A stretch of DNA of 64,000 nucleotides, from NCBI RefSeq assembly GCF_014695715.1, contig NZ_JACJOT010000003.1, positions 62,001 to 126,000 of the forward strand. The letters are read 5' to 3'. A program made the position numbers and the translations under genes. The first letter of the stretch is position 1; the number at the start of each line of letters is the position of its first letter. Source of the stretch: Microcoleus sp. FACHB-68 (lineage in GTDB: Bacteria; Cyanobacteriota; Cyanobacteriia; Cyanobacteriales; Oscillatoriaceae). Shown piece by piece: positions 36,577 to 54,700 of this stretch. The notes beneath the pieces were generated by a model. The model did no database searches. It saw only the letters and a list, made by a program, of their open reading frames with translations, and was not told where the DNA came from.

Positions 36577-37440
36577 ATGAAGCTTTTAGAAACAACCGCC
36601 ACAACCGCAGTTGCCCTGACTGCACTCCTGGGCACAGCAGTCGCACCGGCACGAGGGTTCAGCATTACCCCCAACAACAACGGTTCCGCTTTACTGCAGT
36701 CTTTGCTAGGTGACACCACGGGACTGAGCAATTTTTCAGTCAACCCCATCAGAAACGCCAATGCCTTTGGGATTTTCGAGAACGATCCCTTTGAACTGGG
36801 ATCAGGCATCGTTCTCAGTACAGGCAACGTTACTGAGATACCGGGAGAGAATACGGAAGACGGAAGAAACCTTGACTATGCAACTGATTTAAGCACCGAT
36901 TTTGGCATTGAGGGAGACACTGACGACTCGATTAGCTTAGATATCAGCTTTGATGCCGACAGCACTGCAGATAAGGTGTTTTTCCAGTATGTGTTTGGAT
37001 CGGAAGAGTTTCTGGAATTTGGCGGTTCCGAATTCAACGACGCTTTTGAGCTTTTGCTCAATGGCACGAATTTAGCGAAGTTGAGCGACGGGCAAGACGC
37101 GACGATCGCAAACCTCATCCCAAATCGCAGCGGAACTTACCACCCGGATTTTATCAACAATCCTGCCGGCCCGGATACCCTGACTAAATTAGATGGTTAT
37201 ACGAAAACGCTGGCCTTTGAGGGTCTACTTAACAAAAATTCTCGCAACACACTCACGATCAATATCAAAGATACTGCTGATGGCTTGATGGATTCAGCGG
37301 TATTCCTCAAAGGCGGTTCTCTCGGCACAGCGCCACCGGCTGAGACGGTTCCCGAACCCAGTGTGGTGTTGGGGTTAGTGGGTGTCGGCGCAATTGGTTT
37401 CCTCAAAGGGCGCAGAAACCAAAAAAAACAAAAATTTTAA
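36577..37440 (+). CDS. PEP-CTERM protein with choice-of-anchor L-type domain
   Basis: The 287-residue protein has a signal peptide (cleavage probably near residue 28), then a domain with GIFENDPFELGSGIVLSTGN, DSISLDISFDADS, KVFFQYVFGSEEFLEF and EFNDAFELLLNG, the pattern of choice-of-anchor L proteins. It ends with a PEP-CTERM sorting signal: VPEPSVVLGLVGVGAIG then basic GRRNQKK. Proteins with this end are processed by exosortase and exported with exopolysaccharide. The gene stands alone, with 530 bp before and 558 bp after it, and precedes the surface island. Confidence 0.88.
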   Translation: MKLLETTATTAVALTALLGTAVAPARGFSITPNNNGSALLQSLLGDTTGLSNFSVNPIRNANAFGIFENDPFELGSGIVLSTGNVTEIPGENTEDGRNLDYATDLSTDFGIEGDTDDSISLDISFDADSTADKVFFQYVFGSEEFLEFGGSEFNDAFELLLNGTNLAKLSDGQDATIANLIPNRSGTYHPDFINNPAGPDTLTKLDGYTKTLAFEGLLNKNSRNTLTINIKDTADGLMDSAVFLKGGSLGTAPPAETVPEPSVVLGLVGVGAIGFLKGRRNQKKQKF

Positions 37441-37998: not shown

Positions 37999-40602
37999 GT
38001 GAAAAAAAGTGAACAATGGGCGGCCCATCTGTGGCGAGATAACTGCGATGAGAAAGCAGCGCAACAGGTAGCCAGTGATAGAAAAAAAGATAGTGAACAA
38101 AGTGTTAAGGGCAAAACAAGTCAGAAGTCAAAAATCAGGAAAAGACAGTGTTTTGTATCCTGGAACTTGGCTTTTGGATGCTTTGTTTTGCCCTTTTCTT
38201 GTATACTTTTACCGGCTTTGGCACAAGCGCAAAGTACACCGGCAGGCACGGTGATTGAAAACGAAGCAACGGGAACGTATCAAGATCCCAACACTGGAGA
38301 AATCAACGAGGTAATCTCTAACACCGTTACGATCACTGTGGCAGAAGTGGCGGGGATTACCGTAACCGCAGCCGGCTTTACAGAAGCGGATAGCAATAGC
38401 AAAATTGAAGCCGGCGATTTACTTTATTTCAACTACACAATCACCAACGTCGGCAACGATCCGACAAGATTTAGAATTCCCAATCTCGCAACTGTCACCG
38501 GCCCTGGCACAGTCACCGGCAATCTGCAAATTAGTGTGGATGGGGGGGAAACGTGGATAGATATCGCTGCCGGTTCAACCCTCGCCGGCTTCACCTTCAC
38601 GGGAGATTATGTGGAAACCGGCTCATTTGCCCCAGGTGAATCAATTCGGGTACGAGTGCCGGTGACACTCAACTCAGAAGCAACCGAAGGCAATGAGATC
38701 GCCGTGCAACTTGGACAAACCCCCAACAACGCGCAGAATGTAGCGCAAACTGCCGAACCTGGGGATATTTATACCGTGGATAACCCGGATGGCGTTGCCG
38801 GTGAAACCCTTGGAGTGCCGGCAAATGGTATCCGTGAGGCAAGTGCCACCCAGACAGCGGCAGTCGGGGCAAACCCCCTGGCTTTGCCGGCAATTTACAA
38901 AACCCACGCAGAACCGATTAATGCCGGCAACCCCGCCGATGCCAGTGATGATCGGATTACTTATAACTTAGCGCTGGAAGTGCTATCCCAAACAGTTACC
39001 GGCAGCACCGGCATCGTTCCCGCCGACTTAGCCGGCACCCCGATTACCGTTAACGGCACCTCTGTCACCCGAATTTTAATTTCAGATGCCGTGCCGGCGG
39101 GGACACAACTCACTGACACCCGAACCGTTCCCAGTCAGTGGCAAGCGATCTTCACCAAAGACGATCCGGCAACCGTGAATGCCTTGCAAGCGCAGTGGTA
39201 CACCAACCCCAACGACGCAGCAATTGGCGGCTTAGCAAATGTGACACGAATCGGGTTTATTTTAGACGGAACCGTTGCCACCGGCACACTAATTAGCGGC
39301 TTTTCCTTCCAAGTCGTAACCAGCCGGCTAACAACCACCACCACCGTCGCCAACCTCGCGCAAGTGATCGGTTCAACTGCCGGTGATCCCGACTCCCTTG
39401 TTTATGACGAATCCGGCGATCGCGTTCCCAACAACTTTAATGATGATGGCACCCCTGGTTCAACCGACAGCACCGGCAACCCGGTTATTGATCCGGGAGT
39501 TCCCAACCCAGGCAATCAAGGAACAGACCCCAACAATGATAACAGCGGCACCGGCCCAGGCGGTGAATCCAACGTCATCATCGTAACTGGCCCATCAGCC
39601 GGCATTCTCAATGGCCCACCGGGAGCACCGGGGGCTGTTGGGCCAACCGATACTAACGAAGATTTTGTCAATAAATCCGCACCCATTCCCCCCGGATTAG
39701 ATCCCTCCCAGCCGGTTGATCCTGCACCCGTCGAGTTTACCAACGCCGTGCAGAATACGACCGCCAGTCCTGTCACCATCACCCTTTTACCCACCTTACC
39801 CGCCAATCCCAACGATCTGCCGGCAGGAACAATCGTCACCATTACTTACGGCAACTTATCTGTCACTTATATTTATAACCCAAGCACAGGGTTTACCAGT
39901 TCCCAACCCCCCATCACCATTGTCAACTTAGAACCCAATCAAACAGTAAATTATAGCGTGAAAATCGATTTACCCTCCACCGCCCAATTGCGCGATTATC
40001 CTGTAACAATTACCGCATTTCTTGATAGTAACGGAAATGGTTTGCCAGATACAGGAGAGCCGACAGATCAAGTAATAAATCGCGTTTATACCGGCTTTGT
40101 GCAGATGTTAAAAGAGTCAAGACTTTTGAAAGGAACCGGCGCGGATGTGCCTGCCGGTCAAGAGACATTTAGTACAACTGCTAAAACACCGTCACCCGGA
40201 AATATTATCGAATTTCGCTTGACCTACACAAACATATCAACCCCCGAAGGAGGAACCGGCAACGTCACCTTAACCGCACGGGATATTACCATCACCGAAG
40301 ACGGAACCACCTATGAAGCAGTGAGCAATCCCAAAGGCAACAATTGGGCACTCGATAACGATAATAGTGATGGAGATAATAATCCCACAACCGGCATTGA
40401 TACAAGCAATATCGTCGGTTCTGCCGTAGATTCTAACGGCGGAACCATTACATTTTTCAGTGGTAGGCCGGCCACACTTCAGGCACAAGATCAAACAGGT
40501 ACAAACCTCAATGGAGATGTCACAAAATATGTCAATAGAGTCGGAGGTTCCTTAGCACCTGGTCAATCAGGAACCTTCACCTTTCAACGTCGAGTCAATT
40601 AA
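37999..40602 (+). CDS. Exported protein with DUF11-like repeats (867 aa)
   Basis: The start is GTG at 37999, the only plausible start before the signal sequence. Residues 1-50 are polar and basic, followed by a hydrophobic core (LAFGCFVLPFSCILLPALA, ~55-75) and cleavage probably after AQA, so it has an extended-region signal peptide. The mature protein is built of beta-sandwich modules: AGDLLYFNYTITNVGND near residue 135, a second at about 430-460, a Gly/Asn/Pro-rich linker with repeated NPGNQGTDPNNDNSG-like sequence (~480-520), and a third around 590-700 ending in NGNGLPDTGEPTDQVIN, which is Ca-binding-like. These are DUF11-type domains of bacterial surface proteins. It is the first gene of a same-strand cluster to 48076. 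Confidence 0.8.
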   Translation: MKKSEQWAAHLWRDNCDEKAAQQVASDRKKDSEQSVKGKTSQKSKIRKRQCFVSWNLAFGCFVLPFSCILLPALAQAQSTPAGTVIENEATGTYQDPNTGEINEVISNTVTITVAEVAGITVTAAGFTEADSNSKIEAGDLLYFNYTITNVGNDPTRFRIPNLATVTGPGTVTGNLQISVDGGETWIDIAAGSTLAGFTFTGDYVETGSFAPGESIRVRVPVTLNSEATEGNEIAVQLGQTPNNAQNVAQTAEPGDIYTVDNPDGVAGETLGVPANGIREASATQTAAVGANPLALPAIYKTHAEPINAGNPADASDDRITYNLALEVLSQTVTGSTGIVPADLAGTPITVNGTSVTRILISDAVPAGTQLTDTRTVPSQWQAIFTKDDPATVNALQAQWYTNPNDAAIGGLANVTRIGFILDGTVATGTLISGFSFQVVTSRLTTTTTVANLAQVIGSTAGDPDSLVYDESGDRVPNNFNDDGTPGSTDSTGNPVIDPGVPNPGNQGTDPNNDNSGTGPGGESNVIIVTGPSAGILNGPPGAPGAVGPTDTNEDFVNKSAPIPPGLDPSQPVDPAPVEFTNAVQNTTASPVTITLLPTLPANPNDLPAGTIVTITYGNLSVTYIYNPSTGFTSSQPPITIVNLEPNQTVNYSVKIDLPSTAQLRDYPVTITAFLDSNGNGLPDTGEPTDQVINRVYTGFVQMLKESRLLKGTGADVPAGQETFSTTAKTPSPGNIIEFRLTYTNISTPEGGTGNVTLTARDITITEDGTTYEAVSNPKGNNWALDNDNSDGDNNPTTGIDTSNIVGSAVDSNGGTITFFSGRPATLQAQDQTGTNLNGDVTKYVNRVGGSLAPGQSGTFTFQRRVN

Positions 40603-40703
40603 GTTTTTTTTCCAAAACCCCAAATACACCCAATAACCAGACCTATCCCAACAAAACCTAACAAGGAACAAAAACCCCACTCTTCAAGAAAAACCTCCGC
40701 ATA

Positions 40704-40765
40704 CATCTGCGTTCATCTGCGTATGGCTAGCGCCACGCTTCGCTATCATCTGCGGTTAAAAAAAA
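40704..40765 (+). repeat. CATCTGCG repeat element between cluster genes
   Basis: CATCTGCGTT units at a 10-base period are interrupted by a TATGGCTAGCGCCACGCTTCGCTAT block and end CATCTGCGGTTAAAAAAAA. It fills most of the spacer between the 867-aa and 200-aa genes. Confidence 0.85.
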
Positions 40766-40807
40766 TACCCCCTCCAACAAAAACTCAACATACCTAGGGG
40801 CATAAAA

Positions 40808-41410
40808 ATGCAACATCTACTAATCCTGGCACCGCTCACCCTCACACTTTTAACAAACCCCAATCCAACCCTATTAAACGCGCAACAAACACATTTCGAT
40901 CCTCATTTACTCAAAAACCAAAGACTAAAATCTCAGAAATTAACCCAACAAAACATACCCCTTTTAACCCAAACCCCAGCCAAGCCGGTGCAACTGCGCT
41001 TACAAGCAGAAAAACAAACCGTAATTGCAGATGAAAATGGCAAACAAAAGACAACTTGGCAAACATTACCGGCAAGCGCAGTCGTACAACCCGGAGACAT
41101 CATTCGCTATACCTTACGCGGAGAAAACAGCACAACATCACCCGTAAATAACTTTGTCCTTACCCAACCCATTCCCCAACAAACCGTATATATATTAAAC
41201 TCAGCAGCCGGCCTAGAAGCAAAAATTACCTACAGCATTGATAACGCTAAAACCTATCTGGCAAACCCAACCATTCAAGAAACCCTTCCTGACGGCACAA
41301 TAGAAACCAAACCCGCGCCGGCAGAAGCTTACACACACATACGCTGGGAATTCACAAAACCTGTTAATCTCCCAGACATCGGAGCAACCTATCAAGTCAA
41401 AGTTAAATAA
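40808..41410 (+). CDS. Exported single-domain DUF11-like protein (200 aa)
   Basis: The 200-residue protein has a weak signal peptide (MQHLLILAPLTLTLLTNPN) and a polar Gln/Thr/Leu-rich segment to about residue 60. One beta-sandwich domain follows: VQPGDIIRYTLRGENST, then VNNFVLTQPIPQQTVYI and ITYSIDNAKTYLANP, ending IRWEFTKPVNLPDIGATYQVKVK. This matches the DUF11-like pattern seen in the neighbours, especially AGDLLYFNYTITN of the 867-aa protein. A ribosome-site-like AGGGGC precedes the ATG. It is probably periplasmic or surface exposed and part of the same unit. Confidence 0.78.
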   Translation: MQHLLILAPLTLTLLTNPNPTLLNAQQTHFDPHLLKNQRLKSQKLTQQNIPLLTQTPAKPVQLRLQAEKQTVIADENGKQKTTWQTLPASAVVQPGDIIRYTLRGENSTTSPVNNFVLTQPIPQQTVYILNSAAGLEAKITYSIDNAKTYLANPTIQETLPDGTIETKPAPAEAYTHIRWEFTKPVNLPDIGATYQVKVK

Positions 41411-41453
41411 AAGTATCTATCAAAAACAAATAACTTTAAAAAAATCCTACTTT

Positions 41454-41490
41454 CATCTGCGTTTATCTGCGTTTATCTGCGGTTAAAAAA
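41454..41490 (+). repeat. CATCTGCG repeat element, short copy
   Basis: CATCTGCGTT, TATCTGCGTT and TATCTGCGGTTAAAAAA at a 10-base period fill part of the 118-bp spacer before the 888-aa gene. Confidence 0.85.
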
Positions 41491-41528
41491 TCCCAAAATC
41501 CATGATCTAAAAAGAGGTATAAAATCAG

Positions 41529-44195
41529 GTGTTCAACCCGCCATCACAATTCAAAGATAAAGCCAGAAACCAGAAAAATGAGGGTTCATTTTTCACCCTT
41601 CTGACTGTTTTACCTTTCGCGGCGTTACTTTTACCGGCTGCTGTGGTGGCGCAAGAACAAAACCCTGACTGCGTAATTCCCGGCATCGTCGTGCAAAATC
41701 AAGCCGGTTTTACCTACAGCGACTCAGTTAACCCAGAACCCATCAACGGACTTTCTAGCGCAATAAACTTGGGTTTAATCGGCACCGGCCCTCTCAGGAT
41801 ATCACCGGGCGGCGTTCGTGATGGCAATGATAACTTCGTTGCCGGTGCATTTGCCGGCGCATTGGCAGATGAATTAGTCAGACTTGGCTTTGCCCAAGAA
41901 GAAGCCACCAAAGCCGTGATCGCCGTAACCGTTGCCCTGGCACAGCAACCCAGCAGCGCCACCTTCTCCCAACTTGCCAGAATTTCTAGAGATGCGGTTG
42001 TACAAGCAGTGCCGGCAAAAGCGGAAATCATTCAAGGATTAGAACGTTCAGCGGCACAAGAAATAGGCGTGTCGGTATTTGCCAATTTAGTCAAAACGCA
42101 ACTCGTAGCAGCCGGTTTAACAGAAACCGAAGCAGAAACAGCCACCCAACAAACTATCGCCGCACTGATCACATCCACCGGCAGCACATCTGCTAATCAA
42201 GCCTTTGAAACCGGCTTTCAGGCAATGGTAGGCGCAATTCCCGAAAAAGCCGACCTTCTCACCCAACTGCGAGACGACTTTATCCGCGAAATCGATAGCA
42301 TCCGCAGCGGCATTCGCAGCGGCGTGGATGAAGGAGATGTTCTTAAATTTGAATACGTCGTCTCCAACCCAGGCAACACCTCTTTAAGATTTGAAGTTCC
42401 CGATCCGCGCACCGTTCAGCAGCAGACGATCGGTCCTGGCACCGTTACCGGCGTTCGTTATCAAGTCGTCAATGCTGATGATCCCGGTGCCTTTCTTCTC
42501 ACCGACTGTCCTACTCCAACTCCCACGCCCATTCCCATTCCCATTCCCACTCCAACCCCAGAACCTACGCCAACGCCAACCCCAGAACCTACGCCAACGC
42601 CAACTCCACAACCTACGCCAACTCCGACTCCAGAACCTACGCCAACTCCCACACCCACTACAACCCCAACTCCAACTCCCACGCCAGTGCCGGCAAACAC
42701 TCCCACTCCCGTTGTCGTCCCGCCTGGGGGTGGCGTCATCGTCGTGGTTGATGTCGATGTCAAACCCGTTCCCAACACCGGCACCTCTGTCACCGTCAAT
42801 ATTGGAGACAAAGATGATGTCACCAAGCCGGTGGGGCAAAGCGTGATTATTTCCCCTGTCACCGTCAGACAACCTCTTACCTCACCCTTGGGACGCATTA
42901 CAGGTTGCGCCGGCGAACTTTTACCCGACTACACCGGCTTTAGTGTTGCCCTCTACGAAGCAGACGCTGCTGATCCCACCGGCACTGGACTGGGTAAATT
43001 AATCGCCCTCACCGGCACCGAATATCCAGATATTGGCGATAACGATATTTTAGAAGGTAGTTCCCCCAACACGGAAAACAGCAACCCCTTCTTCCTTACC
43101 AACGGAGATCGCGGCGGTTATAACTTCCTGCTGGACTTAAATCGAGGTCAGCTAGAGGCAGGACGCCGTTATATTTTAGTCGTCAATCCGCCCCCAGATT
43201 CCAACTACAACCAGCGTCGTATTCGGATTGAGATCGGACAAAGTAACACCGGCAGTATTAGCTACACTGCCACTTCCCTCGATGGCAGACCAATTGGTGC
43301 CGGCACGACGAATACCTCTGCTGCCGGCACTCTTAGCCCACAAGATCCGAACCGCCGCAGGCTGGATTTAGCCGTTCTCGACCTCAGCGCCGCTGTCTGC
43401 GAAGCCAGAGAAATCGAAATTATCAAAACCGGCGATCGCATTGCCGCCGAACCGGGTGACACGGTTATTTACCGCCTCTCTATCCGCAATCTTTCCAGTG
43501 TCGCTGCCAACAACATCACCATCCGCGACCAACTGCCCCTCGGCCTCAGCTTCCGATCTGACTCGGTTCGCGGTGAATTAGATGGGCAAGCTGTAACCAT
43601 TACCAGTGATAGTAATGGTCGAGAAATTACCTTCAATGCCGGCACCTTTACCATCCCTGCCGGTAAAATTCTTAACATCGCCTACGCCGCCCGTTTAACC
43701 CCAGACTCCGTGCGGGGCGACGGTCGCAACTCCGCCACCGTCAATGGCCGGCGCAGTGACAACAACCTCGACATTAAGGACGGCCCAGCTACTCACCGCC
43801 TCACCATCCGGCCTGGAATCGTCTCCGACTGTGGCACTCTCATCGGGCGTGTTTTTGTTGATAAAAACTTTGATGGCGAGCAACAACAAGGTGAACCGGG
43901 TGTTCCAAACGCCGTAGTTTTCTTAGACGACGGCAACCGGATTACCACCGACAATGACGGTCTCTTCTCCGTTGCCAACGTCCTTCCTGGCTACCGCACC
44001 GGCGTTCTCGACCTCACCAGCGTTCCGGGTTACACCTTCGCCCCAAATGAGTTTTTCAGTGAACGAAATAGCCAATCCCGACTCGTGCGGTTAGAACCGG
44101 GCGGCTTGGTACGCATGAACTTTGGCATTACCCCAGCCTTTGAGGGCGAGAGTGGCAGTACAGGAGAGGGGGAGTATAGGAGCAGAGGACAATGA
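41529..44195 (+). CDS. Exported DUF11/SdrD-B-like protein with Pro-Thr linker (888 aa)
   Basis: GTG start at 41529, with an AGAGGT-like ribosome site upstream. Signal peptide with cleavage near VVAQ (~41). Domains in order: a short beta segment ([17 protein letters not shown]), then an unusual Ala-rich helical region (about 98-262), then a DUF11-like module ([24 protein letters not shown]). A Pro/Thr/Glu linker of PTPTPEPTP repeats follows (~325-390), a C-rich beta region, a canonical DUF11 domain ([16 protein letters not shown] ... [14 protein letters not shown]), and near the C-terminus a SdrD-B/CNA-B-like domain ([30 protein letters not shown]). It overlaps the next gene by 4 bases (ATGA), so both are translationally coupled. 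It is probably a surface protein displayed or anchored by the neighbour. Confidence 0.83.
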
Positions 44196-47100
44196 AAAAC
44201 TTAACATCCGTCTTTCTAATCAGTTTAGTTGGGGCGATCGCATCTCAAGAAATTTCTAGCGCCCAAATTCTTACGAGAAATCATTACTTTGTAGGAACAT
44301 TGTTGACTCCCTTTGAAAACTCAGCGTATCATGCTAATATAGATCAGTACAAGGGAAAAATGTGGGCGCAAGCGACCCATGATATAAATTCAAATAATTT
44401 ACGTTTAAAAGAAAATAGCATTTCGAGAAATGGGCATGGGGCATTGGGCATTGGGCATGGGGCAAGGCTGCGCCAACCTAAAGGTATGGGCATTGGTTAC
44501 TCAGAACTCAAGACTCAGAACTCAGAACTGAGGACTCAAGACTTACCCCTCCCCACTCAAGACTCAGAACTCAGAACTCAGGACTCAGCACTCATAATTA
44601 GTCCATCTGCCGGCACGGTATTAGATTTACCGGCAACCACAATTGTGGTGCAATATCCCACCGGCAGCCAAATTCAACTACTGGTCAATGGCAAGCCGGT
44701 CGATCCCGCCCTCATCGGTCAAACTGAAACTGATCCCAACACCGGCACCACAACCCAAACCTGGTACGGCGTCCCCCTCAACGAAGGGGAAAATATTATA
44801 GAAGCCAGACAGCAAGCCGGTGCGTCACAAAATTCTTCAATGCCGGCAACCAAAATTAGTATTTTCGTTCGAGGCATACCCGCCCAACTGAAAATCCAAA
44901 CCCTCGAGGCCCGCATTCCAGCAGATAGCCGGTCTACAGCCACCGTCACCGGCCAAATTTTAGATAGCGCCGGCAACCCTACCAACCGCGACGCCACGAT
45001 TACGCTGGCTACCAGTTCCGGGAAATTTATCTCTGTGGACGCTGATCCCGACCAACCGGGATACCAAGTCAAAACCAGCAATGGAGAATTCAGCGCCACC
45101 CTGCAATCAAGTTTGCAAGCCGGCATTGTTCGGATTCGTGCCGGCACACCTAACCTCAACGCCCCAGCCGATATTCCTAACCCGCAACTTGAAGCCTTCA
45201 CCCAAATTGAATTCGAGACAAACTTAAGACCCAACTTGCTCACCGGCGTTATCGATTTTCGCTTTGGCCGGCGCGGTACTGACTTTTGGGATAGTTTTAG
45301 TAACTTCCTTCCTGCCGACGGTGATAATAACTACCAACTCAACGCCAGAGGCGCAGCCTTCACCACCGGCACCTTGGGAAACTGGCTATTCACCGGCGCA
45401 TATAATAGTGCCCGCAATCTTAACGACACTTGCAACGGATTTGATCGCCGGCTATTTCAAGATTTGCAATTTTACGAACAGCAATATCCTACTTACGGCG
45501 ACAATTGCAGCCGAGAAACTGTTGCACCTTCTAGAGATAGCGTCTATTTAAGATTTGAACACTCGCCTTTAATTGAAGGTGCTCAACCTGATTATTTCAT
45601 GTGGGGAGACTATGCCCTTTCGGAATTTTCCACCCCATCCCAACAATTCACCGGCATCACCCGTTCATTACACGGATTTAAAGGTAACTACAATCTCGGA
45701 AACCTGCAAATCACCGGCTTCTATAGCCAGGACGTAGAAGGGTTTCAGCGAGATAGCATTATCCCCGACGGGACTAGCGGCTTCTACTTTCTCTCCCGCC
45801 GGCTGGTTATTCCTGGCAGCGAAGACGTATTTCTGGAAGTCGAAGAATTAGATCGTCCCGGCACAGTGCTTTACCGGCAGCAACTCACCCGCAGCAGCGA
45901 CTACGAAATCGACTACGACCGAGGCACCTTACTTTTCCGGCGTCCGATTTTACGGGTTAACGCAGATCCCACCGGCACGATATTAGTGCGGCGAATTATC
46001 AGTACCTACCAGTACGACAGCCAAGACAACAGCACCAGCATTTTAGGCAGTCACCTGCAATACAACATTTCACGCGACTTTAACCGTCCCTCCTGGATCG
46101 GTGCGACTTATCTACGCGAAGATCGCGGCGTCCGAGACTTTGAACTCTACGGCGGAGATATCCTACTTTCGTTTGGCAACAATAGCCGATTAGTTGGGGA
46201 ATACGCCCATTCCCGCAATGACTCTGATATTTTAGGGAACGTTAGCGGTTCCGCTTACCGGCTGGAATTGAACGGCGGAATTGGCAGGCGGGGAGTTAGC
46301 CGAGGGGTAGAGGCAGAGAGGGAGAGAGTGGGAGAGGAAGAGATTGGGAGAGTGGGTGAGGAAGAAACCCTAAATCCCCAATTGCCCGCTGAAATTCCCA
46401 ACTATCCGCTACCGATTACGAATTTCCAATCGTTATTAAACTACCGGCTCTATTACCGATCCACCGATACCGGGTTTAATAATAACGCCACCACTAGCTT
46501 TGTTGCCGGTCAAAGTCGCTATGGTGCACAACTGTCTGCCGGCATCACCCGATCCACCCTACTGCGATTTCAATACGACCATGAAAAAAATCAGGGAATC
46601 GCCCCACGTCCCCTAACTTCCTACGCCGACTTATTTGAACCCAGACTTGAATCTATTCCCGGCAGCCAAGTGGATAACTCTCTCACCACCCTATCCGCCG
46701 GCGTCTTGCAGCGAATTGGCACAAATGCTTCCCTAGAATTTGACTGGATTAACCGGCATCGGGAAGACAACCGCCCAACCAACCCCCTCGAAACTACCTC
46801 ATCACAACTGCGATCGCGCCTTAGCTATCGAATTGCCAATAACCTTACCTTCCGCGCTCAAAATGAACTCAATCTTGCTTCTGAGCAAGATATTATTTAT
46901 CCGGATAGAACAATTCTTGCCCTAGACTGGGCAGCGTATCCAGGCATTACGCTCCGACTAAGTCATATCTTTTTCAATGGCGGGCAATTTGAGAACAACT
47001 CAATTACCAGCTTAGACTTTCTCGGCGATTATAAACTCGGAGAAGATACCGCCTTAACCGGCAGGTTTGGCGTCGTCAATGCCCAAGCCATGACAGGTGC

Positions 47101-48076
47101 AGTGGGAATTCGTCAAGGTTGGACAATTGCCCCAGGATTAAGAGTTGAAGGCAGCTACGAACATATTTTTGGCGATTTATTCGGACGCACCGGCACCGGC
47201 GTACAATTCGCTCAACCCTATGCTTACGGACAAGGGGCATCAGCTTTGGGTGTTCGCGGCGGCGATAGTTACAGTGTGGGGATTCAATATAATAACGATA
47301 CCGATTTTCAAGCCTCTGCCAGATACGAACACCGCACCTCATCTGCCGGCGGCAACACCGTAATTTCAGCCGCAGCCACCGGCAAAATTTCCCGCGCCGT
47401 TACTGCACTACTCCGCTACCAGCAAGCTTCCAGCGCCAACCAACTGCTCGAAGAATTGGGAGATAGCATCAACCTGCGCTTAGGATTGGCTTACCGCGAT
47501 CCGATTGATGACAAATTTAATGCGCTTTTCCGATACGAATATCGCAGCAACCCTTCAATCATCCCGGATAGTATTTTCTTTGACAATAGCAGCAGTTCCA
47601 ACGACCATACCTTTGCCTTAGAAGCAATTTATGCACCAAATTGGCGTTGGGAATTTTATGGCAAAGGTGCGATGCGTACCAGTACCTCGTACCTAGCAAA
47701 CGATCTTGCCGGCACCGGCACGATTTATCTAACCCAACTCCGTAGCACTTACCGACTCGGCTATCGCTGGGATGCCGTTGGAGAAGTGCGCTGGATCGGA
47801 CAGCCGGCAGATGATTACAGCGAAATTGGCTGGGTGCTAGAAACTGGTTACTATTTAACGCCGAACTTGCGCTTAGCTGCCGGTTATGTGTTCGGCGATG
47901 TCACGGATCGCGACTTTGACGGTTCCCGATCCGCCAGTGGGCCTTATTTGGGGTTAACTGTCAAATTGAATGAATTGTTTAGCGGCTTTGGATTGCAAAA
48001 GCCGGTGCCGGCGCTGGAAAAAGAAGACAAGCAAGCAAATAAAATAGCACAGGGCAAGAAATTTTCTAATCTCTAA
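44192..48076 (+). CDS. Large predicted outer-membrane beta-barrel with Ig-like N-terminal domains (1294 aa)
   Basis: The ATG at 44192 overlaps the preceding stop. A signal peptide ([19 protein letters not shown], cleavage near 25) leads to a repeat-derived linker (about residues 80-135; see findings), an Ig-like domain ([18 protein letters not shown] ... NGKPVDP), an invasin/Big-1-like domain ([21 protein letters not shown] ... [11 protein letters not shown]), and from residue ~345 a long series of alternating amphipathic strands rich in aromatic and Tyr/Arg residues (for example [47 protein letters not shown]). This pattern indicates a large beta-barrel ending near residue 1270. A basic tail follows instead of a C-terminal aromatic. 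It resembles barrels that display or assemble surface proteins, but I cannot name a family. Confidence 0.75.
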
Positions 48077-48798
48077 TTTCTACCCTTCCCAACCCCTATA
48101 CATCTAATTTGCTTTTATTGAAACAGCTTAATGTTTCAAATAATCTGATATTGCAATCTATTTAACTTAAACAAAAAGGTTGTAAAAAAGCAAATTAAAT
48201 GCATATAATCTTAATTTTCTTTATGGGATCACTCCCCATTTGCCGCGACACTTCAAGACGCTGTGGCAATTACTGGACGTTTGTTCTATGCTAACAAAAA
48301 CTTTTACAGCAAATCCGTGTTCTCACGTTCCCCTGTAGAGGCATTGCCGATAACGATGTTCTGGCAAACACCATTGGCCTGCATCGGGAGCTCTCCGGCT
48401 GGACAATCAGTGGTTGTACCAGTCAGTTATCTTTACCAAAAATTAGTATTTCTTCGCTTTGTGTGAATTTTTGGTTTTTTTTTGGATGTATCCGTAAAAC
48501 TACTGGACATTCACGACCAAAATAGGCAAAATCGAAACAGCTCATTTAAAGAGCCTTTGAGCTTTTGCGAAAATTGGGTAAATCCCGATCTTCAATCGCA
48601 GAGCTATCAGGTCTGATATTTAAGGGTGTTTTGCGGGATACAAGGAAATTCCTTGTCAGGCAAAAATTTCTACTTACAAGTAAAAAAAAACATTGCTTGT
48701 CCGATTGTAGAACAAGCAACAAAAGGCTGTGCTTAGTTTTTCTCAAAAATTTTAAATCGATTACTTAGGGTCTATTTTACCATTTGGAAGCTGAAACT
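48077..48798. other. 720-bp spacer before the giant protein gene
   Basis: No convincing gene; the 68-codon frame at 48263-48466 starts with GTG and lacks a ribosome site. Two hairpins are present: CAAGGAA-a-TTCCTTG (48641-48655) and TTGCTTGT...ACAAGCAA (48693-48719, 8-bp stem, 11-base loop). The second lies about 80 bp before the ATG at 48799 and may be in the 5' leader. The sequence is AT-rich, unlike the flanking genes. Confidence 0.5.
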
Positions 48799-51700
48799 AT
48801 GCCAGAAATCAGAGGTTCATCTCAACGGGATTTGCTCACCGGCGCATTAGAAAACGACACAATAATGGGGTGGGCCGGCGAAGACGAATTGCTGGGATTA
48901 GAATTAAATGACTGGATTAGTGGTAACACAGACAACGACTTATTGAATGGTAACGCCGGCAGCGATACAGTACGGGGGGGCCAGGAAAATGATATCGTGC
49001 ACGGTGGCAAAGACAACGATTTGCTCTATGGCGATCTAGGCAGTGATACAGTCTACGGTGAGAGTGGAGATGACACAATTATCGGTGGGAACGGCAACAA
49101 TCAGCCCACAGACACCCAGAAGTCAAATGATCCCCTATCTTCTCCCCTTACCGACACAATTGAAGAAGATAAATCAGACGTTTTATTTGGCAATGCCGGC
49201 AACGACTATATAAACGGGAATGCCGATAATGATACGGTGTATGGCGGCGAAGGAAATGATATCCTACACGGCGGCAAAAATGATGACCAGCTATTTGGTA
49301 ATTTAGGCGATGACCAAGTCAGTGGCGATCTCGGTAATGATACGGCACTCGGTGAGGAAGGCAACGACCAAGTTGTAGGCGGCGAAGGGGAAGATTACCT
49401 AAACGGCAACGAAGACGATGATTGGGTTGCCGGCAACGAAGGCGATGATACCGTTCACGGTGGGCAAGGCAATGATACAGTCCACGGCGGCAAAGACAAC
49501 GATCTGCTATATGGCGATGTAGGCAATGATGTTTTAATCGGCGATCTCGGTTCGGACACACTCAACGGAGGCGACGGAGACGACACCTTCGTGATTGGCA
49601 GACGAGACGATGTTGCCGGTTATCGCACAACGGGTGGAATCAATATAGCCGATGCCGACTGGGTGCTCGATTTTGGCACCGGCAGCGATAAATTTCAGTT
49701 AATCGGCGGAATTACCTTTGACGATTTAAATATATTTGCCGGCACAGGCGAGTATGCCGGTTACACCATTATTCAAGACAAGGTTCTGGGCGAATATTTA
49801 GCCATCTTGAAAGGCTTCACCGGCACTCTTAGCCGAGAAAATTTCATCTCCTTAACCCCCACTCCCCCCACCGCACCTGGGGAGGATACAGAAACACCTA
49901 GTCCAACACCGGGAGGAGGAAGTCCTTCGCCTAATCCAATACCGGGAGGAGGAGGAAGTCCTTCGCCTAGCCCCTCGGCATCCCCGAACGATATTTTGCT
50001 ATCGGGTGGTGCCGTTAATGAAAATAGTCCAGCCGGCACTGTCATCGGTAGTTTATCTGCTATTGATCCTGATGCCAAGGATACGCATACTTATGAATTA
50101 CTCGACGATGCCGGTGGTCTGTTTATAATTGACGGCGATCAGTTAAAAGTCGCCCCAGGCGCGTCCTTAGACTTTGAAGCCCAAGCCAGTCACACCATAA
50201 AAGTGCGCGTGACTGACGCAGCCGGCAAGACTTTTGACAAAGACTTCCCGATCACCCTTCAAAACACCAATGAAGCGCCGGCAACCGCTAACCCCATCGT
50301 TGACCAACTTGCAGGTGCTGATACACCGTTTAACTTCACAGTTGCCGGCACAACCTTTACAGATCCCGATGGCGACGCGTTAACCTACACAGCCACTCTA
50401 ACCGGCGGCGAACCATTGCCGGCGTGGTTAACATTTAATCCCACTACCCGCACCTTTAGTGGCACCCCAACCAATGGGGATGTGGGCAACCTATCAATCG
50501 ATGTTCAAGCATCAGATGGTAAAGGCGGCATTGTCACCGATACATTTACTTTGGTGATTGACCATATTGAGGATGCGCCAACGGTTGCTAACCCTATCGC
50601 TGACTTAAATACCCCCGAAGATAGTGTATTTAATTTCACATTTGCTGCCAATACGTTTGCAGATATTGATGGGGATGTATTAACCTACACAGCCACCCAA
50701 ACCGGCGGCGCACCCTTGCCGGCCTGGTTAACATTTAACCCTGCAACCCGCACCTTCAGTGGCACTCCAGCCAATGGAGATGTTGGCACCCTATCAATTG
50801 ATGTTCAAGCATCAGATGGCAACGGCGGCATTGCTATCGATACATTTAATTTGGTAATTGGAAATGTCAATGATGAGCCAACGGTTGCTAACCCTATCGC
50901 TGACTTAAATACTCCCGAAGATAGTGTATTTAATTTCACATTTGCCGGCACAACCTTTAATGATGCCGATGGAGATGCATTAACCTACACAGCCAAACTC
51001 ACCAATGGCGCTACACTGCCGGCCTGGCTGACATTTAATCCCATCACCCGCACCTTTAGTGGCACCCCAACCAATGAAGATGTTGGCACCTTATCAATCG
51101 ATGTTGAAGCATCAGATGGCAAGGGTGGCCGTCTCATCGATACATTTAATTTGGTGATTGACAATGTTAACAATAAGCCAACGGTTGTTAACCCCATTGC
51201 CGAGCTAAATACTCCAGAAAATAGGGTTTTTAACTTCACATTTGCCGACACAACCTTTAACGATGCCGATGGAGATCCATTAGCCTACAGTGCCACTCTA
51301 ACCAGCGGCGAACCATTGCCGGCCTGGTTGACATTTAACCCAGCAACCCGCACCTTTAGTGGCACTCCAACCGATGGAGATGTTGGCACCCTATCAATCG
51401 ATGTTAAAGCATCAGATGGCAACGGGGGCATTGTCATCAATACATTTAATTTGGTGATTGACAATATTGACCCCACTAACAATCTACCAACGGTTGTCAA
51501 CCCCATCACTGACCAAAATACCCTAGAAGACGCTACTTTTAATTTCACATTTGCCGGCACAACCTTTAATGATCTCGATGGAGATGCATTAACCTACACA
51601 GCCAAACTCACCAATGGCGCTACACTGCCGGCCTGGTTAACATTTAATCCCACCACCCGCACCTTTAGCGGCACCCCAAGCAATGAAAATGTTGGCACCC

Positions 51701-54700
51701 TATCAATTGATGTTGAAGCATCAGATGGCAAGGGTGGCCGTGCCATCGATACATTTAATTTGGTGATTGGCAATGTCAATGACGTGCCAACGGTTGTCAA
51801 TCCCATTGCTGACCTAAATACCCTAGAAGACGCTACTTTTAACTTCACATTTGCCGAAACAACTTTCAACGATATTGATGGAGATGCGTTAACTTACAGT
51901 GCCACCTTAACCGGCGGCGAACCATTGCCGGCCTGGTTAACATTTAACCCAGCAACCCGCACCTTTAGCGGCACTCCAGCCAATGGAGATGTAGGCCCCC
52001 TTTCAATTGATGTTCAAGCATCAGATGGCAACGGCGGCATTGCTATCGATACATTTAGTTTGGTGGTAAATAATGTCAATGATGACCCAATCGTTACGAC
52101 CCCCATCGTTGACCAAAATACCGATGAAGATAGTGTCTTTAACTTCACGTTTGCGGCCAATACATTTACAGATCCTGATAACGACACATTAACCTACAGT
52201 GCCACCCAAACCGGCGGGGGTGCATTGCCGGGGTGGTTAACATTTAACGCAGCAACCCGCACCTTCAGTGGGACTCCAACCAATGAAAATGTTGGCACCC
52301 TATCAATTGATGTTCAAGCATCAGATGGCAACGGCAGCAGTGTCACAGAGACATTTATTTTGGGTGTGACAAATACCAATGATGCCCCAACGGTTGTCAC
52401 TGCCATTGCCAATCAAAACGCGAACGCCGGCACAGCATTCAACTACACATTTGCTGCCACAACTTTCAATGATATGGATGGCGATGTATTAACTTACAGT
52501 GCCACCCTAACCGACGGCACACCACTGCCGGCCTGGTTAACATTTAACCCAACAACCCGCACCTTCAGTGGCACTCCAACCAATGGAACTGCCAGCTCCC
52601 TTTCAATCACTGTTCAAGCATCAGATGGCAACGGCGGCAGTGTCACCGATACATTTACTCTGGCGATTAATAATAACCCGCCAATCGTTGCTACCCCCAT
52701 CGTTGACCAAAATACCGATGAAGATAGTGTCTTTAACTTCACGTTTGCGGCCAATACATTTACAGATCCAGATGGAGATGCGTTAACCTACAGTGCCACC
52801 GTAGCCGGCGGGGGTGCATTGCCGGCCTGGTTAACATTTGACGCAGCAACCCGCACCTTCAGTGGCACTCCAGCCAATGGAGATGTAGGCACCCTATCAA
52901 TCAATGTTCTAGCATCAGATGGCAACGGCGGCAGTGTCACAGATACATTTATTTTGGAGATTGACAATGTCAATGATGACCCAATCGTTACTACCCCCAT
53001 CGTTGACCTAAATACCCCTGAAGATAGTGTCTTTAACTTCACGTTTGTCGAGACAACCTTTAACGATATTGATGGCGACGCGTTAACCTACAGTGCCACC
53101 CAAACCGGCGGCGCAGCATTGCCGGCCTGGTTAACATTTAACCCAGCAACCCGCACCTTTAGCGGCACTCCAGCCAATGGAGATGTGGGCAATCTTTCAA
53201 TCGATGTTCAAGCATCAGATGGCAACGGCGGCAGTGTCACAGATACATTTATTCTGGGTGTGACAAATACCAATGATGTCCCAACAGTTGCCAACGCCAT
53301 CGCTGACCTAAATACCCCTGAAGATAGTGTCTTTAACTTCACGTTTGTCGAGACAACCTTTAACGATATTGATGGCGACGCGTTAACCTACAGTGCCACC
53401 CAAACCGGCGGCGCAGCATTGCCGGCGTGGTTAACATTTAACGCAGCAACCCGCACCTTTAGCGGCACTCCAGCCAATGGAGATGTGGGCAATCTTTCAA
53501 TCGATGTTCAAGCATCAGATGGCAACGGCGGCATTGCAACAGAGACATTTAATTTAGTGATTGACAATGTTAACGACGCGCCAACGGTTGTCACTGCTAT
53601 TGCTGACCAAAACACGAACGCCGGCACAGCGTTCAACTACACATTTGACATTAATACTTTCACTGATATTGATGGCGATGTGTTAACTTACAGTGCCACC
53701 CTAGATAACAACGCACCATTGCCAGCGTGGTTGACATTTAACCCAACAACCCGCACCTTTAGTGGCACTCCACCCAATGGAACTGCCAGCCCCCTTTCAA
53801 TCAATGTTCTAGCATCAGATGGCAACGGCGGCAGTGTCGTCGATACATTTAATTTGGTGGTTAATGTTAATAACGATCCAGTAGTTGTTAACCCCATCGC
53901 TGATCTAAATACACTAGAAGATAGTGTCTTTAACTTCACGTTGGTCGAGACAACCTTTAACGACCCTGATGGCGATGCGTTAACCTACAGTGCCACCCAA
54001 ACCGGCGGCGCAGCATTACCGGCCTGGTTAACATTTAACCCAGTAACCCGCACCTTTAGCGGGACTCCAGCCAATGGCGATGTAGGCAACCTATCAATTG
54101 ATGTTCAAGCATCAGATGGCAACGGCGGCATTGCTATCGATACATTCAATTTGGGTGTGATAAATACCAATGACCCGCCAATCGTTGCTACCCCCATCGT
54201 TGACCAAAATACCCCTGAAGATAGTGTCTTTAACTTCACGTTTGCGGCCAATACATTTACAGATCCAGATGGAGATGCGTTAACCTACAGTGCCACCGTA
54301 GCCGGCGGCGCAGCATTGCCGGCCTGGTTAACATTTAACGCAGCAACTCGCACCTTTAGCGGGACTCCAGCCAATGGAGATGTGGGCAACCTATCAATCG
54401 ATGTTCTAGCATCAGATGGCAACGGCGGCAGTATCACAGATACATTTATTTTGGGGGTGACAAATACCAATGATGCCCCAACGGTGGTCACTGCCATTGC
54501 CGATCAAAACGCGAACGTCGGCACAGCATTTAACTACACATTTGACGTTAATACTTTCACTGATATTGATGGCGATGTGTTAACTTACAGTGCCACGCTA
54601 GATAACAACGCACCATTGCCAGCGTGGTTGACATTTAACCCAACAACCCGCACCTTCAGTGGCACTCCACCCAATGGAACTGCCAGCCCCCTTTCAATCA

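Follow-up and report, generated by a model that had tools for sequence, protein, structure and literature searches.

The window analysed here, 64,000 nucleotides of the cyanobacterium Microcoleus sp. FACHB-68 (contig NZ_JACJOT010000003.1, positions 62,001–126,000), carries four genes, here called A to D, which encode three putatively exported proteins with immunoglobulin-like (Ig) folds followed by a large predicted outer-membrane β-barrel. The four-gene arrangement is a conserved unit, and sequence matches place its last two genes, the C–D pair, well beyond the cyanobacteria, an extension that is not visible from the window itself. We propose that D could be the outer-membrane pore and collar of Ig-fold (CLIPPER) fibres, in a manner akin to two-partner secretion, and regard export through D as an evenly balanced question.

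DUF11 (CLIPPER) domains form adhesin stalks and filaments in many bacteria, and the available text of PMC12617251 and PMC13319060 does not explain how such chains leave Gram-negative cells. A concrete candidate for their way out is a barrel gene found almost always behind a DUF11–SdrD_B partner, in organisms ranging from cyanobacteria to Thermus and rhizobia; if true, the proposal would explain the passage of DUF11 fibres across the Gram-negative outer membrane. The question is testable in two laboratory strains, Thermus thermophilus HB8, which has the whole set, and Deinococcus radiodurans R1, which has the C–D pair. A search of open-licence literature showed no description of the pair, which is weak evidence of absence since subscription journals lay mostly outside the scope of that search. 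The nearest reports, as far as their accessible text goes, concern DUF11 stalks (PMC12617251) and DUF11 hook filaments (PMC13319060), while a 2026 study, likewise available in part, put to use the signal peptide of a DUF11 protein of Synechococcus PCC 11901 that is predicted to be in the outer membrane (PMC13297417).

The gene cluster and its conservation

All four open reading frames (ORFs) lie on the plus strand. An earlier sequence-only reading of the window had described four genes (867, 200, 888 and 1294 amino acids, aa) in one direction, the last two overlapping as ATGA, and the ORFs confirm both this description and its coordinates:

37999..40602, + strand: gene A, 867 aa, GTG start, exported multi-Ig protein
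40808..41410, + strand: gene B, 200 aa, exported small DUF11-like protein
41529..44195, + strand: gene C, 888 aa, GTG start; signal peptide, insertion, DUF11 domain and SdrD_B-like C-terminus
44192..48076, + strand: gene D, 1294 aa, predicted outer-membrane β-barrel
44192..44195, + strand: ATGA overlap of the C stop and the D start, read from the sequence

The gaps are 205 bases between A and B and 118 bases between B and C. The host genome measures 6.5 Mb, and Microcoleus vaginatus WJT46-NPBG5 is close to it (D 91% identical).

This arrangement is not a product of chance, because its order recurs in 27/27 loci while the flanking genes do not. In a phylum sample of 292 genomes, DUF7925, the domain of A, was present in 27. 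Outside the window we read 27 DUF7925 loci from 26 genomes (one has two), each spanning about 4 kb upstream and 4–6 kb downstream, and A-B-C-D stood in the same order and on the same strand in every one, the A ORF of L067 being short (579 aa). C and D overlapped by exactly 4 nucleotides (nt) in 23 of these loci, by 1 nt in three and by 28 nt in one. Five flanking window genes used as controls (MinC, MinD, a PEP-CTERM protein, a 2750-aa protein and the next gene) had no best match in the 27 loci. A collection of 84,980 species yielded 409 stretches with D relatives, and in the best 80, which were taken by similarity and are therefore biased to the window type, A-B-C-D was found in 76, the other four starting at a contig end; the overlap was exactly 4 nt in 60 of 76 loci from named genomes. 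These cyanobacterial locus sets share some genomes and are not independent.

The sequence-only reading had treated the four genes as one set. That stands for A, since no genome among the 292 had DUF7925 without D, and only in part for D. The D profile matched 36 of the 292 genomes (32 of them above 1,000 bits) and 31 of 60 relatives; the phylum search considered no more than two candidates in each genome and overlooked additional copies to which a search with C pointed (L194, L195), so that copy counts are low. Thirty-four further loci were fetched, 14 of them chosen for a missing A, an extra copy or a distant genome, with L196–L199 as distant members. Of the remaining 30, 29 have C ahead of D, while the last offers a single base upstream of D. 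Twelve of the 29 lack A and B (type II), 16 are complete, and the sequence of one (L235) breaks off 916 bases upstream; the 4-nt overlap is present in 19. Wherever upstream sequence was present in the cyanobacterial sets, no full-length D was found without C.

The C of type II loci is short (245–369 aa), and downstream come a β-helix gene, with an OmpA domain in two of three scanned proteins, and then a DUF11-type gene; a fourth scanned β-helix protein, from a full-set locus, was without OmpA. Type II looks derived, because its twelve rows in the D tree form one clade nested inside full-set cyanobacterial sequences, in a tree made by a quick method with several long branches, where a thirteenth row labelled type II is the cut locus L235. 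In the distant member G047, B-like, A-like and C-like genes and D (as two ORFs) follow in order, and a D fragment fills most of the 4-kb contig of G035. A fifth gene, which overlaps the end of D, is present in some cyanobacteria (L064 2721–5945, L065 12149–15358); that of L065 carries DUF11 and DUF7619 domains and recalls the fifth DUF11 gene of Thermus described below.

Outside the cyanobacteria, named plasmids were searched, so the spread is a lower bound and biased to plasmids. A tblastn search with D against 72,556 plasmid records found 55, mostly Deinococcus (19), Thermus (12) and proteobacteria, and two further plasmid searches, with distant D proteins as queries, gave 22 and 35 records. 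We read 21 plasmid loci (19 non-cyanobacterial) from Cyanobacteriota, Deinococcota and Alpha-, Beta- and Gammaproteobacteria; the C module lies before D or is fused to it in all 21. To judge from these matches, the conserved core is C before D. C and D are joined in a single chain of 2008 aa in Acinetobacter haemolyticus and of 2032 aa in Pacificitalea, which places the C-terminus of C beside the N-terminal domains of D. A 4-nt overlap joins D to the gene before it in Nitratireductor, Sinorhizobium, Phyllobacterium and Pelagibacterium. In eight of 11 alphaproteobacterial loci, the gene before D codes for a DUF11 protein that measures about 1,900–6,200 aa and carries the C module towards its end, the largest (about 6,100–6,200 aa) being those of Roseivivax and Sulfitobacter. 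The giant DUF11 protein of Croceibacterium also has a C-terminal OmpA domain, and an OmpA-domain gene follows D in A. haemolyticus. Two loci are irregular: D. radiodurans has a small ORF between C and D, and the C of Paracoccus is truncated, after insertion sequences.

In T. thermophilus HB8 the genes run B-A-C-D with a fifth DUF11 gene in line (E value 2e-16 for B, 5e-14 for A, 4e-16 for C, 2e-19 for D), and reversed sequences of the same 404 ORFs gave no match. The HB8 A-like protein matches DUF7925 weakly (E value 6e-4, under cut-off), and the Thermus B-like protein has no Pfam match of its own. Novosphingobium has A-like and B-like genes, C and a broken D, and hits of the B profile fall in the Thermus, Deinococcus, Novosphingobium, Acinetobacter and Pacificitalea clusters, with E values from 1e-11 to 9e-19. 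Both the whole HB8 set and the C–D pair of D. radiodurans R1 are plasmid-borne. Within the stretch L240 1361–22877, the HB8 cluster (B-A-C-D-E; TTH_RS10905–RS10925) has a Cas3 gene as a neighbour at a distance of a few kb; the genes separating them encode a hypothetical protein, a DNA methyltransferase and a regulator.

As to the neighbours of the window cluster, a choice-of-anchor L protein with a PEP-CTERM sorting motif is encoded just upstream of A (36577–37440), and a 2750-aa ORF follows the cluster (48784–57036); neither has a best match at the cluster in the 27 loci of relatives. By inspection of its sequence, the 2750-aa protein has RTX-like repeats, many cadherin-like repeats and FG-GAP-like repeats. 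Elsewhere in the same genome (C3, about 165.8–170.3 kb, outside the window; L071 5828–10267), the gene for a 1479-aa protein with six DUF11 stretches stands right behind a short piece with a weak match to the final part of D (C3:170294–170386, E value 7e-4), perhaps the remnant of a second C-D-type locus.

Domains of the partner proteins and the predicted barrel

The domains of A, C and D on which the proposal draws are as follows:

38887..39438, + strand: DUF7925 domain of A, residues 297–480, predicted triad K301-D363-N452
43413..43742, + strand: DUF11 (CLIPPER) domain of C, triad K633-D667-N734
43848..44069, + strand: SdrD_B-like (CnaB-type) domain of C, candidate triad K779-E845-N864, below cut-off
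41736..42839 (approximate limits), + strand: insertion of C, A-like Ig module and TP-rich linker
44594..45142, + strand: N-terminal Ig-like (residues ~135–228) and Big_1/Invasin_D3-like (~232–317) domains of D, from Pfam and the model
45194..48001, + strand: barrel region of D, residues ~335–1270, from the strand-alternation score and the model

A carries DUF7925 (E value 3e-59) and C carries DUF11 (E value 1e-10), both above the Pfam cut-off, and C has in addition the SdrD_B-like domain (E value 6e-6, under cut-off). The suggestion that the 200-aa protein B has the same fold is in line with its match to the DUF11-type repeat TIGR01451 of NCBIfam (E value 3e-8), with Pfam DUF11 itself reaching just 0.026. 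In the available text of PMC12617251, DUF7925 is listed as a predicted isopeptide family with Lys264-Asp326-Asn415 in Q8YS00, and the spacing of K301-D363-N452 in the window A is identical to that published triad. Among 116 distinct A and 127 distinct C sequences, setting aside rows with a gap at the column, the DUF7925 triad is kept at K in 104/107, D in 106/107 and N in 108/109, and the DUF11 triad of C at K in 126/126, D in 126/126 and N in 125/126. The SdrD_B triad, which is our own assignment and whose N864 falls just past the matched stretch, is kept at K in 121/126, E in 122/125 and N in 124/125. From these conserved triads, isopeptide bonds are predicted in the stalk domains of A and C. 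The window proteins share with the CLIPPER/DUF11 isopeptide stalk proteins both the domain and the published triad positions. They do not show the fibrillar-adhesin layout of an adhesive tip and a long repeated stalk in one chain, as Pfam and NCBIfam identified no known adhesive domain in A–C and one DUF11 or DUF7925 apiece; long stalks do occur in the partner proteins of some relatives.

The structure model of A is all-β, a chain of Ig-like domains (mean predicted local distance difference test, pLDDT, 75.1; predicted template-modelling score, pTM, 0.46). Its best Foldseek match is to the Ig-like domains of PrgB (E value 1e-13), followed in the list by many integrins, the CfaB and Saf pilins and the CNA adhesin, all at low template-modelling (TM) score. 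The start codon of A is uncertain: the GTG (in the stretch 37999–38232) puts a long N-terminal extension ahead of the signal peptide, and the alignments of relatives begin about 40 residues further in, where there is no in-frame ATG, GTG or TTG.

The sequence-only reading had also pointed to a module shared by A and C. The motif common to the two (AGDLLYFNYTITN in one of its two forms) is real, but in C it sits within an insertion of about 370 residues that is missing from the other 23 C proteins of alignment A2; it is therefore not family-wide, and as proof of common subunits it was rejected for the family. By length, large C proteins (about 800 aa upwards) are present in the genus to which the window belongs and in some of its relatives. 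Within the insertion lies a long TP-rich linker (window ~42500–42750, C residues ~325–410), across which the opposite strand is open (ORFs 42384–42872 and 42461–42898), likely a repeat artefact. At the extreme C-terminus (..FQRRVN in A), the pattern [VIL][NKRQ] was found in 103/116 A, 111/112 B and 2/127 C distinct sequences, as against 55/684 background ORFs of at least 150 aa. We did not use it as a sorting signal, as it may simply be the last Ig strand, and a stricter pattern (A 0/76, B 35/76, background 13/370) was dropped.

D had been read from the window as a barrel with Ig-like and Big-1-like domains. The domains are below the Pfam cut-off in the window protein (Invasin_D3 1.6e-6, Big_1 1e-3) and recur in the family, at E values up to 0.1, in 23/24 (Invasin_D3) and 15/24 members (Big_1). 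Past them come some 935 residues of mostly predicted strand. The summed strand-alternation score of residues 335–1275 is 41.8 against a maximum of 39.2 in 300 shuffles; by peak count the excess is modest (44 against a shuffle mean of 34, sd 3.9, maximum 46). The AlphaFold2 model of residues 135–1294, of modest confidence, is mostly strand (mean pLDDT 64.7, pTM 0.40), with a confident C-terminal half, a weak middle and pLDDT of about 75–87 across most of the N-terminal Ig/Big_1 stretch; we count 25 long strands in residues 774–1258, preceded, in residues 291–758, by about two dozen that are shorter or less certain. Foldseek returned 252 hits to this model at E 0.001 or better; those listed (50) consist largely of GH2 Ig domains and of barrels from several families, among them SlpA, MtrB, SprA, LptD and TonB receptors, all at TM below 0.3. 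Because these matches spread over unrelated barrels at low TM, no lumen size can be assigned to D. These results support a large barrel-like protein and give neither a family nor a pore size.

Pfam and NCBIfam gave D no named outer-membrane family apart from weak generic hits: a broad D profile matched FadL-type barrels of the PDB weakly (E value 0.006–0.009), and Porin_4 was matched by three of 24 members (best 5e-6). TonB plug and receptor domains were absent from the window D, the 24 members of alignment A1 and three non-cyanobacterial D proteins (Pfam) and from six D proteins (NCBIfam). The TpsB models (POTRA, ShlB-type barrel) found nothing in D at E up to 1 or in 24 members at 0.1, and the DUF560 barrel of type XI secretion (T11SS/Slam) did not match the window D or 24 D members (Pfam). 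The SprA model TIGR04189 was silent in the window D and six other D proteins (NCBIfam), and also in 20 genomes of relatives, where the positive controls stayed silent too. The own genome has no match to the usher PF00577 or the PapD chaperone PF00345, for which the E. coli control was positive. No S-layer homology (SLH) or other surface-layer (S-layer) domain was found in the window proteins (Pfam), and the phage collection searched held no match to D.

Kinship of D with SprA of the type IX secretion system (T9SS), prompted by a DY-x-IDY motif, was rejected as a family claim: profile and single-sequence searches of the PDB missed SprA, the NCBIfam model was silent, and Foldseek places SprA only among many low-TM barrels. 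Also rejected, for want of a family match, was the automatic name TonB-dependent receptor. The alphaproteobacterial homologues (L203, L207, L211, L214–L217) are annotated under that name, as hypothetical protein or as outer membrane protein transport protein, and the receptor name is without support in L211, the single protein of that name scanned with NCBIfam; the present proposal would correct it on several members. The N-terminal linker of D (window 44363–44623, residues ~58–144) resembles a short repeat dispersed through the own genome: secondary tblastn matches number more than 70, almost all of them fall on this stretch, and many contain stop codons. It looks as if D has acquired a scattered intergenic repeat as part of its coding sequence.

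A proposed export route and its alternatives

In the proposed scheme, A, B and C would be exported by Sec into the periplasm, and D would insert in the outer membrane with its Ig-like and Big_1-like domains facing the periplasm, where these would dock the C-terminal DUF11–SdrD_B module of C, whose gene overlaps that of D. The chain of Ig domains (C, joined by A and B as additional putative subunits) would then exit outwards through a wide lumen of D, C and D would remain as a collar or anchor, and intramolecular isopeptide bonds would harden the stalk domains. The scheme would resemble two-partner secretion or a chaperoneless usher, with Ig domains replacing the POTRA domains. At the level of sequence, adjacency, fusion and conservation show the partnership of C and D. 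The OmpA domains on partner proteins, together with a DUF11 adhesin that, in the available text of PMC12617251, has an adhesive N-terminus and an OmpA-like C-terminal anchor, suggest a chain with its N-terminus outside and its C-terminus held in the periplasm. Such an adhesin must cross the outer membrane, so that a barrel gene next door would supply the pore.

Several observations weigh against this proposal. Adjacency and fusion show partnership, not export. Most sampled genomes of the phylum lack D, and there are DUF11 proteins in its absence. Ten of the 29 further loci lack the 4-nt overlap, and in six of these about 260–1,080 bases, with at most one small ORF, separate C and D; in G047 the C-like gene and D are separated by other ORFs. 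A 1024-aa ORF of G032 (L243 2719–5793) matches the barrel half of D alone (99 bits); the 9.9-kb contig that carries it shows no match to C, and a different contig has C-type matches. The barrel can thus, by sequence, occur without C at least in this remote form, possibly a separate branch of the family without an Ig partner. The D model (pTM 0.40) does not establish barrel closure, and its Foldseek matches are to many unrelated barrels (TM <0.3). Finally, in the accessible part of PMC13319060 the giant DUF11 hook protein GhlA is reported to be without a signal peptide, and DUF11 filaments can therefore be exported otherwise.

The main rival, which we hold to be rather unlikely, is that D acts only as an anchor or platform, like Deinococcus SlpA, to which DUF11 proteins attach after reaching the surface by another route. 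The top Foldseek match of D is indeed the Deinococcus SDBC/SlpA barrel (8agd; also 8ae1 and 7zgx), the Ig-like domains on D would suit docking, and the OmpA-domain partners suggest envelope anchoring. However, that likeness is weak (TM ~0.2) and common to many other barrels, the tight coupling and fusion of C and D would exceed the needs of an anchor, and DUF11 proteins of up to 6,200 aa would need some other exit.

It is improbable that D is a transporter, TonB-type or porin-like, with the DUF11 proteins as accessory surface receptors. The automatic annotations of several alphaproteobacterial homologues and the weak FadL-type and Porin_4 matches speak for it, whereas the TonB families went unmatched in all the D proteins scanned, no transport gene recurs in the clusters read, and the partners are Ig stalks with isopeptide triads. 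Slightly less probable again is a periplasmic role, in which the proteins would tether the outer membrane to peptidoglycan. OmpA domains, which bind peptidoglycan, occur on partner genes, and C is fused to the presumed periplasmic end of D, but partners of up to about 6,200 aa far exceed the width of the periplasm, and the DUF11 proteins in the available text of PMC12617251 and PMC13319060 are surface adhesins or filaments. Least probable of all is an S-layer in which the outer membrane would be tiled by A, B and C on a base formed by D, for while three Ig subunits in fixed order are compatible with a lattice and DUF11 repeats occur in archaeal proteins proposed for an S-layer (cited in the available text of PMC12617251), partner lengths run from about 150 to about 6,200 aa across relatives, type II loci lack A and B, and no S-layer domain was matched in the window.

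Of the surface-fibre or surface-layer system first suggested for this cluster, the layer is thus not supported, and the fibre is a prospect that we judge to be evenly poised. The broader claim, that D represents an undescribed class of outer-membrane export machine, we put forward tentatively and with more doubt than confidence: a giant barrel that would pass Ig-fold, isopeptide-locked chains, dock DUF11–SdrD_B modules by its Ig/Big_1 domains and, in three or more phyla, assemble DUF11 (CLIPPER) fibres, giant adhesins thousands of residues long among them.

Comparison with known systems

The sequence-only reading is supported in that, by the models tried, putatively exported Ig-fold proteins encoded with their own predicted barrel are unlike the chaperone-usher, T9SS, TonB and two-partner families. 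Deinococcus SlpA/SDBC is the top Foldseek hit of the D model, but at a TM of about 0.2 and with no sequence kinship established. SprA of the T9SS is likewise a very large outer-membrane barrel and is among the weak Foldseek matches of D, whereas D lacks TIGR04189 and the partners lack the T9SS C-terminal domain in Pfam scans. Two-partner secretion (type Vb) and chaperone-usher systems also encode exported partners with an outer-membrane barrel, here a predicted one, and the latter also use Ig-fold subunits; in contrast, the own genome has no usher or PapD, and D matches neither transporter family and has Ig/Big_1 domains instead.

The DUF11 grappling-hook filaments (GhlA of Litorilinea, PMC13319060, and GhpA of Aureispira, cited there) are likewise chains of DUF11 domains, and giant DUF11 genes also precede D in alphaproteobacteria. 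They differ in that GhlA is without a signal peptide, in that the available text of PMC13319060 reports no D-type barrel, and in that the cyanobacterial subunits are short. Compared with the CLIPPER (DUF11) fibrillar adhesins (Acinetobacter silvestris B9T28_05395, PMC12617251), for which the main text of the source contains neither 'barrel' nor 'secret' and so mentions no neighbouring barrel gene, the present subunits are split over several genes, while having in common the DUF11 stalk with its isopeptide triad and, on some partner proteins, the OmpA-type C-terminal anchor.

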